Of a stretch of DNA of 61,795 bases, positions 7,348 through 11,275 are shown piece by piece. This stretch comes from Candidatus Zixiibacteriota bacterium (GTDB lineage: Bacteria; Zixibacteria; MSB-5A5; WJJR01): positions 608,206 through 670,000 of the forward strand of contig DASWIS010000008.1 of NCBI GenBank assembly GCA_036397555.1, in the 5' to 3' direction. Numbering within the stretch: the first letter of the stretch is position 1; each line of letters starts with the position of its first letter. The position numbers and the translations under genes are program-made. A model generated the notes under the pieces. It had not been told where the DNA came from and made no database searches. It saw only the letters and a list, made by a program, of their open reading frames with translations.

Positions 7348-8196
7348 ATGCGGGCAATCGTGATGCGCATCGTAATCTGGCTCGGTATCCTAGCGGTTGC
7401 CGCTCTTGCGCTGAAGTTGTTCATGCGCTGGATCGAGCCGCGCATCGCGTTTCACCCCATCCCCGGTCCGACTCCGCCGCCGCCGGGTTTTGAAAGATTC
7501 GAAGTGACGGCAGCCGACGGGGTCCGCATCGTCGGCTGGAAGACGCCGTTGCCGGCTGATGAGCCGGTCCTGCTCTATTGCTGCGGTAATGCCGGAAACC
7601 TGACCGACCGAACCGACTTGTTATTCAACGCCGCAGCCCATGGCCTGCGCATTCTGGCGTTCAACTATCGCGGCACCGGGGAGTCGGGGGGAAGGGCAAC
7701 CGAAGAGGGGGTGTATCTCGACGCCGCGGCGGTCTACGACCATGCCGTTTCGACGCGGGGCAGTTCCGATGGCATTATCCCGTGGGGGCACTCGATCGGC
7801 GGCGTCGTGGCGGTCGAATTGGCTCACCAGCGCCCATGCGCGGCCCTGATTCTCGAATCGACCTTCCGTTCCGGGCGGCTGATGGCGCGGCGGATCTTCC
7901 CATTCCTGCCCACGTCATGGCTCATGTCATACGTCCTGGACAACGAAACCAAGCTCCCCCAGCTCACGGTACCGGTCTTGCTGATCCACGGCACCGCCGA
8001 CCGCACCATTCCTGTCGAGGATTCACAGGTCCTCCACGGCTTGGGGGGCGGTCCGCGTGAGTTATGGTTGATCGACGGCGCCGACCACAACGACACCCAC
8101 GAAGTCGCCGGAGCGGCCTTCTATGAGCGGATTGCGGCGTTTGTCAAACAGCCGACAGGCCAAACGGTCGATGAGCCCCGCCAAGTCCCGCACTGA
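7348..8196 (+). CDS. Membrane-anchored alpha/beta hydrolase
   Basis: This is a 282-residue alpha/beta hydrolase of the YfhR/BEM46-like type. One N-terminal membrane segment (IVIWLGILAVAALALKLF) is followed by the hydrolase fold. The nucleophile elbow is GHSIGG with Ser149, the acid is Asp218 in HGTADRTIP and the base is His247 in DGADHNDTHE. The oxyanion region is CCGNAGNL. The substrate cannot be deduced. The start is uncertain: a GTG at 7291 and an ATG at 7306 lie in the same frame, and none of the candidates has a clear Shine-Dalgarno site. I prefer the ATG just before the membrane segment. Confidence 0.85.
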   Translation: MRAIVMRIVIWLGILAVAALALKLFMRWIEPRIAFHPIPGPTPPPPGFERFEVTAADGVRIVGWKTPLPADEPVLLYCCGNAGNLTDRTDLLFNAAAHGLRILAFNYRGTGESGGRATEEGVYLDAAAVYDHAVSTRGSSDGIIPWGHSIGGVVAVELAHQRPCAALILESTFRSGRLMARRIFPFLPTSWLMSYVLDNETKLPQLTVPVLLIHGTADRTIPVEDSQVLHGLGGGPRELWLIDGADHNDTHEVAGAAFYERIAAFVKQPTGQTVDEPRQVPH

Positions 8197-8529
8197 CCCA
8201 CCCGCTGTCAGATCAGGACACCATCGGGGCGCATGGCACAGTGCTAATTTGAAATCTCTCCCGCAAGATTCTGTGTGGCAATCGCTTGGGGATAATCTCA
8301 ATGCAGCCTCGACGGAATACGCAGCTTTATCACCTTACGGCAGGACGGGTGATAAAACCGGCGCGTGGGCTTCCAAACAGAGAAACGTGATACAAGGTAA
8401 TCGCCATTACTGAACAAACGTTCACGGGCGTGGCAGATCGTTCGTAGTATAATAGGCGTTGCAGAAACTTCGAATATCGTGATTTTATACAATTGTGCAT
8501 ACGGCTTGGACGGAATTGAAGGAGAGGAC
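8197..8529 (+). promoter_or_regulatory. Leader/promoter region of the Panacea gene with two inverted repeats
   Basis: The base composition turns AT-rich here. Three things are visible: a 9-base inverted repeat, TTTATCACC (8326-8334) and GGTGATAAA (8348-8356); a short palindrome TGAAC-AAAC-GTTCA (8411-8424); and a perfect -10 box TATAAT (8448-8453) without a good -35. The palindrome sits where the -35 region would be, as expected for an autoregulatory operator of a toxin-antitoxin operon. That role is inferred. Confidence 0.45.
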
Positions 8530-9090
8530 GTGACGAACCTGGAACCACAGAGATTTGAGTTTTCGGAGGCCAAGTTTAAGGAATTGGTAATATACATCGC
8601 CAACAGGTGTCAGTATAGCCCTAAATCGGGCGACACCAAGCTCAACAAAATCCTCTTTTACTCCGACTTCATTTTCTACGCAAAGTATGGCCGACCGATT
8701 ACAGGTGAAGAGTATACAAAGCATCAGTATGGTCCAGTTTCTCGGCGACTGTTGCCCGTCAGAAACGCGATGGATGGCACAGATGTCCACATTCTTAAGA
8801 GACAGACCATGCGCGGGCAACAAACGCGAACCATTCCTCGCCGCGAAGCGGATGTGTCGATCTTCGATTCAATTGAAATCGAAATAATTGACCACGTGAT
8901 CGATGCGCTCATGGCGCATGATTCGGAGTCAGTTTCGGAGCTATCTCATACGTTCCGGGGATGGCAAATGACTCCAACGGGCGAGACGATTCCGTACGAG
9001 AGCGTGTTTCTTCCGGATAATCAGAAACACAATGTCTCTAAGCGGGAATTGGAGGTCCTTCAAAGACTTGCGACTGCCGACTCCAAATGA
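8530..9090 (+). CDS. Panacea (DUF4065/SocA-like) antitoxin-type protein
   Basis: This 186-residue protein matches the Panacea/SocA-like fold. Residues 37-50 (KLNKILFYSDFIFY), then GRPITGEEY and QYGPVSRRL (about 66-74), are the family signature of a short helix, a tyrosine-rich segment and the YGPV motif. Proteins with this domain act as antitoxins for many unrelated toxins (the PanA/PanT concept). The start is a GTG at 8530 with a strong ribosome site GGAG five bases upstream; a GTG at 8479 in the same frame lacks one. The stop codon overlaps the start of the next gene (ATGA), so the two are translationally coupled. Codon use and AT content differ from the core genes, which suggests horizontal acquisition. 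Confidence 0.82.
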   Translation: MTNLEPQRFEFSEAKFKELVIYIANRCQYSPKSGDTKLNKILFYSDFIFYAKYGRPITGEEYTKHQYGPVSRRLLPVRNAMDGTDVHILKRQTMRGQQTRTIPRREADVSIFDSIEIEIIDHVIDALMAHDSESVSELSHTFRGWQMTPTGETIPYESVFLPDNQKHNVSKRELEVLQRLATADSK

Positions 9091-9386
9091 ACCACGACCT
9101 CCAATTCAGTCTCCAACCCCGCCGCGTAATCGAGTCCAGCGAGTGCGTCCAACAGCTCAAAGAGCTTTGCGAAAAATTCCCACGTTTCCTCGAAGTTTGG
9201 ATATCAATCCGCAGAGAATTAACGGATCTCGCCCATCACGACGCCATTAAGCATCCAAACTTGGATGGATATCACTTTAAGCGAACCGCCGCGTGTTATG
9301 AGACCCCAAGCTTTACGTACTACTACAAGTACGACGAAAGCACAGCCACAATTATGCACATTGAAGCAACCGACGATTCCATGTAA
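9087..9386 (+). CDS. Small candidate toxin paired with the Panacea antitoxin (RelE/ParE-like fold suspected)
   Basis: This is a 99-residue protein translated from an ATG that overlaps the preceding stop by four bases. The predicted order is strand (LQFSLQPRRVIE), two helices (residues 18-55), then three strands (GYHFKRTAACYE, FTYYYKYDES, TATIMHIEATD). That is the topology of RelE/ParE-type ribonuclease or gyrase toxins, and the run of Tyr, His and Arg near the end is compatible with an RNase site. I recognise no named family, so the fold is inferred from pattern only. The operon position after a Panacea gene strongly suggests a toxin role. It could instead be an inactive accessory protein. 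Confidence 0.65.
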   Translation: MNHDLQFSLQPRRVIESSECVQQLKELCEKFPRFLEVWISIRRELTDLAHHDAIKHPNLDGYHFKRTAACYETPSFTYYYKYDESTATIMHIEATDDSM

Positions 9387-9392
9387 GGGTGG

Positions 9393-9917
9393 TCATTCAT
9401 CAGTAGCATCGTGACTTGATTCCCCGTTTGTTGATGATGCCGCTTCGGAGTCATTGTCGCCATTCCCGGGGCTATCCTGCTTGCCGCTCTTTGACCGTCT
9501 CAGCCTCGCAATCTCAGGGTACCACTCCACAAGCCCGAAACTGTCTGACCCTTTGACCTGAATGAAGGTCGCAGTGTTCTTACCCAAAGATATCCTGAGG
9601 CCGCGTTCGGCGAACTTTTCATCGCCGAAATCATATCCACCGCGTTTCATCGTATCCATGACTTCCGATACCTGCATGGCGTGCCCCCTCATCTCTAAAA
9701 CTTCTCGCACAACACTTGCCAGAGGTTTACCAAAGAACTGATCGGGTCTCATTGCCTGACTCTCCGTGCGCTCCGGCTCTACGCTCCTATAACGCGGAGG
9801 TTCATCCATTGCCTGACACAGGGCGTTGATCGCACGCTTGGTATTGGCGACCTCGTTCTCCTGTGCATTTAGACGGGCCGTTAGCTCCTCAATCGACTTT
9901 CTCAAATGCTCTGACAT
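9393..9917 (-). CDS. Coiled-coil protein with a winged-helix (HARE-HTH-like) domain
   Basis: The protein has 174 residues and runs convergent to the toxin gene, six bases away. Residues 1-45 form a coiled coil (LRKSIEELTARLNAQENEVA). Residues 58-135 (PLASVVREVLEMRGHAMQVSE.. through RISLGKNTATFIQV) resemble the HARE-type winged helix found in restriction, chromatin and transcription-linked proteins. The C-terminal 40 residues are Ser/Asn/Asp-rich and probably disordered. The start is firm: AAAGGAG lies seven bases upstream and a good promoter lies 35 bases further. A sequence-specific or modified-DNA-binding role is plausible but unproven. Confidence 0.7.
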   Translation of the reverse strand: MSEHLRKSIEELTARLNAQENEVANTKRAINALCQAMDEPPRYRSVEPERTESQAMRPDQFFGKPLASVVREVLEMRGHAMQVSEVMDTMKRGGYDFGDEKFAERGLRISLGKNTATFIQVKGSDSFGLVEWYPEIARLRRSKSGKQDSPGNGDNDSEAASSTNGESSHDATDE

Positions 9918-9951
9918 CTAAGGCTCCTTTCTCTTCGCCGAAATCGATCAG

Positions 9952-9980
9952 AAATAAACTATTTGAATCTTTTATGTCAA
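9952..9980 (-). promoter_or_regulatory. Sigma-70-type promoter of the HARE-like gene
   Basis: Read on the minus strand, TTGACA (9980-9975) is followed after 17 bases by TTATTT (9957-9952), 34 bases before the ATG at 9917. It lies in a strongly AT-rich stretch (9950-10030). Confidence 0.6.
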
Positions 9981-10145
9981 TTGAATTCTATGATTCTGAT
10001 TCTGAATTAGATATACACTATTTAATACCAATGTCTTGGGTGTTGCTTTGAGCTGACAAGAATTCCTTGGCGGATCGTCAGGAAATCGGTCAAGGGCGTG
10101 TGATTCCGCTTGACATGGAGCTTGAGACTGAGTTTTTTGGAGCAC

Positions 10146-10218
10146 AGAAAAGGGCCGGGTGCGATAACACCCGGCCCAAAAGTCGGAAAGTCCGCTCGGC
10201 GAAGAGAGGAGCTTTTCC
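10146..10218 (-). ncRNA. Candidate small RNA, about 73 nt
   Basis: No protein frame explains this unit. On the minus strand a near-consensus promoter (next entry) predicts a start at about 10218. The transcript would begin GGAAAAGCTCCTCTC. It would contain a small hairpin CGGA-CTT-TCCG and would end in a perfect 10-base-pair stem GGGCCGGGTG / CACCCGGCCC (10177-10152, loop TTATCG) followed by TTTTCTG, an intrinsic terminator. The CU-rich 5' part (CTCCTCTC) is complementary to Shine-Dalgarno sequences, which suggests a trans-acting regulator of translation. The promoter, length and terminator are seen; expression and function are inferred. It matches no RNA family I recognise (not 6S, SRP RNA, tmRNA or RNase P). 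Confidence 0.6.
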
Positions 10219-10224
10219 TATGCG

Positions 10225-10253
10225 AGGATACCTCATAACTGACTGTCTGTCAA
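10225..10253 (-). promoter_or_regulatory. Strong promoter for the candidate small RNA
   Basis: On the minus strand TTGACA (10253-10248) is followed by a 17-base spacer and TATCCT (10230-10225). This is among the best sigma-70 matches in the window, and it faces no protein gene. Confidence 0.65.
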
Positions 10254-10518
10254 GGGAAAAGAGACAGCTCAGTTATTCCATCTGGCCACGCGCGCCAAGT
10301 CCCTTTTCCAAGCCCCTTCGGGGGCTGAATAGACGCCCCGCCGTCCCGTTTGCGCGAGACGGCAGAGCTAACTCAAACCACGCGGATCGAGGCCACATGG
10401 CAAACGCTAATACCAATATCGGTGCCGGCCCGGGACATCGCAAGGGGGCCGTTCCGTCCATCGGCCCAGTAAGGCCGAGGAGTCGATGGCATAAGACTTG
10501 ACAGAAAGGAGGTGTGCG
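10254..10518. other. GC-rich intergenic stretch with hairpins, no gene recognised
   Basis: It includes a UUCG-type hairpin AGCCCC-TTCG-GGGGCT (about 10313-10328) and an imperfect stem CCGTC..GACGG around 10343-10365. It may be the leader of the small basic gene that follows. No known RNA family was recognised. Confidence 0.35.
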
Positions 10519-10650
10519 ATGTCGAAGCGAAAGACCACGCAACGTGGTCGAGATGCTGGGTCGGGCAAGTTTATTCCCGTCGACAAGGCGCGTAAGCAAA
10601 AGAATACCGCGGTTGTCGAACGAGTCCCGGTGCGCACGAAGAAGAAGTAA
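10519..10650 (+). CDS. 43-residue basic protein
   Basis: This small ORF has an excellent ribosome site (AAAGGAGG, seven bases before the ATG). The product starts MSKRKTTQRGRDAGSG and ends VVERVPVRTKKK, with 15 Lys/Arg and a net strong positive charge. The central pattern RDAGSGKF..V..A......T.VER resembles a widespread family of tiny basic proteins with no firm function (sometimes mislabelled as multidrug transporters). It could bind nucleic acid or the ribosome, and it sits just upstream of ribosomal protein genes. The assignment as a real gene rests on the ribosome site and the composition. Confidence 0.6.
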   Translation: MSKRKTTQRGRDAGSGKFIPVDKARKQKNTAVVERVPVRTKKK

Positions 10651-10685
10651 GATGTTGCATGGAGATTGTGAATCAATGGCTGGAC

Positions 10686-10725
10686 GGGCGGGCGGGCGGG
10701 CGGGTAGGCAGCCACTCCCCGCCCG
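10686..10725 (+). repeat. GGGC tandem tract (G-quadruplex type) with overlapping hairpin
   Basis: Five GGG runs separated by single C (10686-10704) form an ideal intramolecular G-quadruplex motif. Its last part, CGGGCGGG, can alternatively pair with CCCGCCCG at 10718-10725. It lies between the 43-residue gene and the rplM promoter, so it may stop or slow transcription between them. Confidence 0.6.
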
Positions 10726-10778
10726 TTGAGCATAAGACTCTCACGAATCGCGACATTTGAAGGTGTTCGATATCCCTC

Positions 10779-10807
10779 TTGACAGACAAGAGGATACGTG
10801 CTAAAAT
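10779..10807 (+). promoter_or_regulatory. Promoter of the rplM operon
   Basis: TTGACA (10779-10784), a 17-base spacer and TAAAAT (10802-10807) make a near-perfect sigma-70 promoter 36 bases before the L13 start codon. Confidence 0.85.
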
Positions 10808-10843
10808 TGTCGGCTTGTACGCGACTTGGGACGCGGCGTCGGA

Positions 10844-11275
10844 ATGAAGACATACATACCAAAACAGGGCGAGGTCGCGCGCGACTGGTACGTCGTCGAC
10901 GTGGGCGGTAAGATCTTGGGGCGGACCGCCGCCGGGATCGCCCGCGTGCTGCGCGGCAAGCACAAGCCGCAGTTTACGCCTCACATGGACATCGGTGATT
11001 TTGTGGTCGTGGTGAACGCCGCCGAGGTGCGTGTCTCCGGGCAGAAGGAAATCGGCAAGTCGTACTTTCATTACACGGGCTATCCGGGCGGGGCGCGGTT
11101 CCGTACGGTCAACGAGACGCGCCAGCGCCGTCCCGAAGATATCGTCATGCATGCCGTGCGCGGCATGCTGCCGAAGAATCGTCTCGGACGTCGGCTGTTG
11201 ACCAAGCTGAAAGTCTATCCCGGTCCCGAACATCCCCACGCGGCGCAGTTGCCAAAGCCGCTGGAGCTTACGTAG
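10844..11275 (+). CDS. rplM: 50S ribosomal protein L13
   Basis: The product has 143 residues, the usual length. It begins MKTYIPKQGEVARDWYVVD and contains the L13 core GKILGRTA.. and the signature MLPKNRLGRRLLTKLKVYPG near the C terminus. L13 is an early assembly protein of the large subunit. The ATG at 10844 is chosen because the family starts with MKTY; an in-frame TTG at 10826 would add six odd residues. It is the first gene after a strong promoter and is followed by rpsI, the normal gene order. Confidence 0.95.
   Translation: MKTYIPKQGEVARDWYVVDVGGKILGRTAAGIARVLRGKHKPQFTPHMDIGDFVVVVNAAEVRVSGQKEIGKSYFHYTGYPGGARFRTVNETRQRRPEDIVMHAVRGMLPKNRLGRRLLTKLKVYPGPEHPHAAQLPKPLELT

Follow-up and report, generated by a model that had tools for sequence, protein, structure and literature searches.

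Trans-encoded sRNAs with C-rich loops directed against the Shine-Dalgarno (SD) sequence are a known style of sRNA, in which the CUCC of a hairpin loop pairs with the SD and a Rho-independent terminator ends the RNA. In type I toxin-antitoxin systems, the target encodes a small hydrophobic membrane toxin, typically under 60 aa. The unconventional type I pairs ZorO-OrzO, TisB-IstR-1, and ShoB-OhsC of E. coli have about 18-21 nt of complementarity between the sRNA and the 5' region of the mRNA (PMC3919570). Here, we describe a locus from a member of the Zixibacteria, found in a 61,795-nt stretch of DNA that is referred to as the window. The window spans positions 608206-670000 of contig C8 (genome G000), and its assignment to the Zixibacteria is based on rplM, which is 70% identical to that of a named Candidatus Zixiibacteriota MAG. 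As in the three E. coli pairs, an independent sRNA gene adjoins its putative target without overlapping it, complementarity is limited, and the target is proposed to be repressed at the level of translation, here as a prediction from sequence. Unlike in these pairs, the sRNA gene lies on the same strand as its target gene and upstream of it, the pairing would cover the SD directly, and a predicted winged-helix protein of 174 aa takes the place of a short hydrophobic toxin. An sRNA gene that adjoins a protein gene and is antisense to its mRNA is thus found here as in type I systems. We did not class the locus as type I, since its target falls outside the short hydrophobic toxins: the target protein and its homolog have 174-188 aa and consist of a charged coiled coil and a predicted winged helix, and neither is a small hydrophobic membrane toxin.

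Our main reading, to which we assign a probability of roughly two in three, is that a neighbour-encoded antisense sRNA covers the SD of a mobile HARE-HTH-like gene and thereby prevents its translation. An RNA of ~75 nt would be made from its own promoter and ended at its own terminator, its 5' hairpin would display CUCUCUUCGCC beside GCUCC, and these two elements would pair with the mRNA of the gene that follows on the same strand, at its 5' leader and SD. Because the duplex would hide the SD, translation of the HARE-HTH/RpoE-like winged-helix protein would be repressed. The steps that we infer are that the RNA is transcribed, that the duplex forms in the cell, and that repression results. The locus represents a small, testable sRNA-target pair and ties RNA control to a mobile HARE-HTH-like protein family.

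A promoter, a terminator, a hairpin, complementarity to the neighbouring gene, and a homologous RNA-gene pair whose sequences have changed and would still pair can be read in the DNA. The predicted promoter of the sRNA (10225-10253, minus strand) has 10 of the 12 consensus bases at optimal spacing, with TTGACA at 10253-10248, a 17-nt spacer, and TATCCT at 10230-10225, followed by GGAAAAGCTCCTCTC. From the sequence, its fold, and the homolog in genome G028 described below, an RNA of about 74-75 nt is predicted (10146-10219, minus strand; 5' AGGAAAAGCUCCUCUCUUCGCCGAGCGGACUUUCCGACUUUUGGGCC). It would begin with a stem-loop (10185-10218, minus strand), whose outer stem GGAAA/UUUCC occurs in both members and whose loop region carries the pairing stretch, and finish with an intrinsic terminator (10146-10177, minus strand) made of a stem, the loop UAUC, and a U-run. 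The minus-strand promoter, predicted RNA, and GC stem with U-run were found at 10253-10146 just as the initial annotation had placed them. Its perfect 10-bp stem, GGGCCGGGTGT-TATC-GCACCCGGCCC at 10177-10152 and followed by TTTTCTGT, indeed has 10 Watson-Crick pairs, and extends to 11 pairs when one G:U is counted. The ~73 bases that it had described as free of any ORF are overlapped by a mechanically called 48-aa ORF on the minus strand (10236-10090), but this ORF has a negative codon score, and its ATG lies upstream of the predicted RNA start.

A scan of positions 9800-10400 returned one promoter (0.5 expected by chance) and two terminators (0.5 expected), so that each of these elements alone is near chance expectation and not beyond it. 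The 79-nt RNA folds at -36.6 kcal/mol (z = -3.9) into the 5' stem-loop and terminator hairpin, with the z-score being largely due to the terminator. It is the pairing with the neighbouring gene, together with the homologous element in G028, that raises the RNA element above chance. As separate observations, GGCCGGGTG...CACCCGGCC hairpins recur across Zixibacteria genomes, at L004, L006, L007, L008, L013, and window positions 10152-10177, several of them followed by a U-run, and we read this recurrence as a possible preferred terminator sequence of the Zixibacteria class. The putative promoter of the rplM operon (10779-10807, plus strand; TTGACA-17-TAAAAT with TG before the -10) and the sRNA promoter have the 11-mer CTTGACAGACA in common.

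The antisense stretch GCUCC-UCUCUUCGCCGAG (10195-10212, minus strand) finds its complement in the leader and SD of gene 9917-9393, where the target site 5'-UUCGGCGAAGAGAAAGGAGC (9923-9942, minus strand) includes the SD AAAGGAG. Between RNA 10212-10195 and mRNA 9942-9923, 5 pairs are followed by a 2-nt bulge in the mRNA, 12 Watson-Crick pairs, and one G:U, amounting to 17 Watson-Crick pairs (5+12) and one G:U, or 18 pairs in total. When the SD regions of 1982 possible gene starts, taken from 462 kb of genome, were each searched for inverted matches in their own preceding 400 nt, gene 9917 ranked first. Scored against the window RNA, gene 9917 reached 28 and the runner-up among 2113 starts (~460 kb of genome) reached 22, with the SD itself making up part of the match and any anti-SD stretch being able to hit an SD. 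When the part of the leader preceding the SD was shuffled, none of 5000 trials reached the observed score. In a comparison of 55-nt windows by raw duplex energy, the target of gene 9917 was placed near the top ~1% and not first; since GC-rich windows dominate this measure, it was not kept for ranking. Overall, the comparisons support the anti-SD stretch as the core of a complementarity that is specific to one leader and not a generic motif. One precedent counts against repression: the pairing of the window RNA has an interrupted form similar to that of an OrzO variant in E. coli with 5-(2)-11 pairing, which failed to repress zorO (PMC3919570). The zorO site, however, lies within a long 5' UTR (PMC3919570), whereas the site in the window is directly over the SD.

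A second example of the arrangement was found in G028, which belongs to another Zixibacteria family and encodes a homolog of the target protein (32% identical) in a gene neighbourhood unrelated to that of the window. Upstream of this gene and on the same strand, TTGACA-17-TATATA is followed by GGAAACTCCTTTCTTTTCGCTTGAGTGTTTCCAAATTTGGCCGGTAGCTCAAACTACCGGCTTTTT, and the parts follow each other in the same order as in the window, GGAAA-CTCC..TTTCTTTTCGC-..GTTTCC-AAATTT-terminator. The TATATA was not called as a -10 by the promoter scan and would place the RNA start ~40 nt further upstream. Both RNAs align in the outer stem, loop core, spacer, and terminator stem, and when the two upstream regions of ~400-500 nt are aligned locally, the top-scoring segment is exactly the RNA element, at a score reached by 14 or 6 of 1000 shuffles, depending on the scoring. 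In line with the initial annotation, which had proposed a search for compensating stem changes in related genomes, the terminator stem carries two compensatory pair changes; this covariation is a single comparison, since only two members are known. The G028 RNA has a fold z-score of -5.4.

The leader of the G028 gene differs around its SD (AAGCGAAAAACAGGAGG), and the loop of the G028 RNA, CUCCU..UUUUCGCUU, pairs with it at a score of 25, which only a handful of the 1982 background starts reached, the window locus included, and which shuffled versions of the leader sequence before the SD reproduced in 2 of 5000 trials. The window RNA is predicted to form a duplex of -32.2 kcal/mol with its own target compared to -14.9 kcal/mol with that of G028. 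The G028 RNA reaches -25.0 kcal/mol on its own leader and -29.3 kcal/mol on the window leader; as it would pair well with the window target too, a divergence of specificity in both directions is not clear. Because the same arrangement is present in G028 with RNA and target both changed, the comparison argues that the pairing between RNA and leader is real. A natural second example in which loop and leader have both changed is evidence usually missing for sRNA calls made from sequence only.

The alternative that survives best is a leader acting in cis, which we consider unlikely. Transcription would then stop at the terminator by attenuation, and in read-through mRNA the hairpin loop would pair with the SD of 9917-9393 on the same molecule. 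Such a leader would account for the shared strand, the order, and the gene start 230 nt downstream, and the pairing would work equally well within one molecule; yet a joint transcript is unnecessary, given that the terminator is strong and that the gene has a separate TTGACA immediately upstream, at 9981. This TTGACA is part of a sequence, TTGACA-16-TTTATT (9954-9981, minus strand), that may be the target gene's own promoter, with a weak -10 and a leader of ~29 nt. Likewise at odds with a cis-acting leader, both loci have ~230-240 nt of unconserved sequence between the terminator and the gene start.

The complementarity could also reflect a ribosome binding site on the opposite strand, where GAGAGGAGCTTTTCCT-ATG at 10204-10222 provides a good SD and start codon for a 93-aa ORF, whose leader would merely resemble that of gene 9917. 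The opposite strand of the G028 element likewise reads AAAGGAG and then ATG, and a divergent gene pair on the phage contig L226 truly has similar leaders. Nevertheless, we judge this explanation improbable: the codon score of the 93-aa ORF is -0.26 bits per codon, compared to +0.2 to +0.3 for rplM and rpsI, and it has no Pfam match, while the corresponding ORF in G028 is unrelated and only 20 aa long, so that no peptide is common to both loci. Moreover, a plus-strand promoter was not found, and at both loci the terminators with their U-runs and the TTGACA-17 promoters point the same way, opposite to such an ORF.

We give similarly little credence to a general trans-acting sRNA with many mRNA targets, the role that the initial annotation had favoured. 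The window RNA does resemble trans-encoded sRNAs with C-rich loops in its CUCC loop facing an SD, its CUCCU stretch, and its Rho-independent terminator, and the prediction of an sRNA with an anti-SD stretch stood. Binding to ribosome sites in general gave way to a match with one adjacent leader, since among the 2113 starts this leader is far apart from all others; unlike in that style of sRNA, the match runs on for the 12 further Watson-Crick pairs at one neighbouring gene. A wider target set was not found in the tested ~460 kb of genome, and genomes without the adjacent gene also lack the RNA. That the region is untranscribed, and its promoter, inverted repeat, and terminator are products of chance, is very improbable, as the near-chance counts of the single elements would allow it but the G028 locus with its homologous layout, and the complementarity that matches at both loci, speak against it.

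The gene proposed to be controlled by the antisense sRNA (9393-9917, minus strand) encodes a 174-aa protein with an N-terminal coiled coil, whose C-terminal domain is predicted to be a HARE-HTH/RpoE-like winged helix. Against PF05066 (HARE-HTH), it scored 12.9 bits (E 0.16), below the cut-off of 25.9, and a paralog in the same genome scored 19.3 bits (E 0.0015), also below the Pfam cut-off. The AlphaFold model has a mean pLDDT of 71 and a pTM of 0.40, and the best Foldseek match of the predicted winged helix was an S. aureus RNA polymerase chain (8x6g_E; E 0.067, probability 0.99), with the B. subtilis delta subunit (2m4k) among further structural matches. In its predicted winged helix, the protein may resemble HARE-HTH (PF05066) proteins, including the RNA polymerase delta subunit RpoE; it differs from them in falling below the Pfam cut-off and in its N-terminal coiled coil. 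Unlike the polymerase subunit RpoE, several of its homologs are encoded next to an IS1-like transposase.

The locus is part of a ~2.6-kb insertion (8197-10858) between a hydrolase gene and rplM, defined by comparison with family relatives, in which the alpha/beta-hydrolase gene (ending at 8196 here) lies ~100 bp from rplM instead of 2.6 kb. The insertion contains a SocA/Panacea antitoxin-like gene, a 99-aa ORF, gene 9917-9393, and the predicted small RNA, in addition to short ORFs whose codon scores are negative. As the locus is accessory DNA, its conservation must be judged with the linked genes and not with rplM. Persistence of the flanks without the element, which the initial annotation had considered telling, was ambiguous in outcome, with the family relatives lacking the whole 2.6-kb block. 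In G028, by comparison, the RNA element is kept with the HARE-HTH-like gene at a different genomic place. Besides the sRNA locus, the SocA/Panacea antitoxin-domain gene (8479-9090, plus strand; Pfam E 3e-17) overlaps by 4 bp with the 99-aa ORF, which has no family match, and the two genes (8479-9386, plus strand) are a candidate PanAT-type toxin-antitoxin pair.

In Rfam release 15 (the initial annotation had suggested consulting Rfam), nothing in the window reached the gathering score, and the locus and its G028 homolog had no match at E up to 1. A covariance model built from the two RNAs scored them at 98 and 93 bits in 132 genomes of the phylum; the next hit had 36.8 bits, and no further convincing member was found in these genomes, the inspected hits below 37 bits matching mainly the terminator. 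A pattern search of the 132 genomes with up to 3 mismatches found the hairpin and terminator elsewhere only at G028 among the loci inspected, and a DNA search of 98 relatives returned the own locus and otherwise short, mostly chance matches and recurrent GGCCGGGTG...CACCCGGCC terminators near genes. Searches for the RNA in plasmids, phages, and viral contigs yielded nothing meaningful, and a search of a paper collection found no study of sRNAs in Zixibacteria. The RNA would represent a new sRNA family of a kind already known. Six protein homologs came from the phylum of L087 (labelled Acidobacteria; 396 genomes) and one from viral contigs (L226), none of them with a window-type RNA; the phylum of L064 (labelled Desulfonatronospira; 395 genomes), 33 other genomes, plasmids, and phages gave none.

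HARE-HTH-like homologs lie beside a divergent IS1-like transposase, which we take to belong to the IS1 family, in the window's own genome (contig C18), in G072, and in three genomes labelled Acidobacteria, and we regard these genes as a mobile family because of this proximity. IS1-like transposases with a divergent HARE-HTH-like passenger gene thus occur in Zixibacteria and Acidobacteriota, and those at L125 (174-1025, minus strand), L188, L190, L191, and L192 are 52-71% identical to the copy of the window's genome. At L189 (contig C18), L188, L191, and L192, the region between the divergent transposase and the HARE-HTH-like gene holds, 260 nt upstream of the latter, a structured stretch of very high stability (-88 to -116 kcal/mol per 263 nt). 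An AGAAAGG...ATG core is common to these stretches by eye and L191 has a clear terminator; Rfam gave no match and automatic alignment no consensus fold for the four stretches, which are possibly an unrecognised transposon ncRNA. A broader and doubtful idea is that mobile winged-helix genes of Zixibacteria and Acidobacteriota form RNA-controlled HARE-HTH modules with an ncRNA gene upstream on the same strand, either a short antisense RNA (two loci) or a larger structured RNA (four loci beside an IS1-like transposase), in which RNA and DNA-binding protein would be one transferable unit that controls transposition or defence. On the phage contig L226 (2740-3001), the gene of the HARE-HTH homolog runs divergently from those of an XRE-like regulator and an IrrE-like protein, and TACAACA(N)AAAGGAC is common to both divergent leaders, which suggests an operator overlapping the ribosome binding site.
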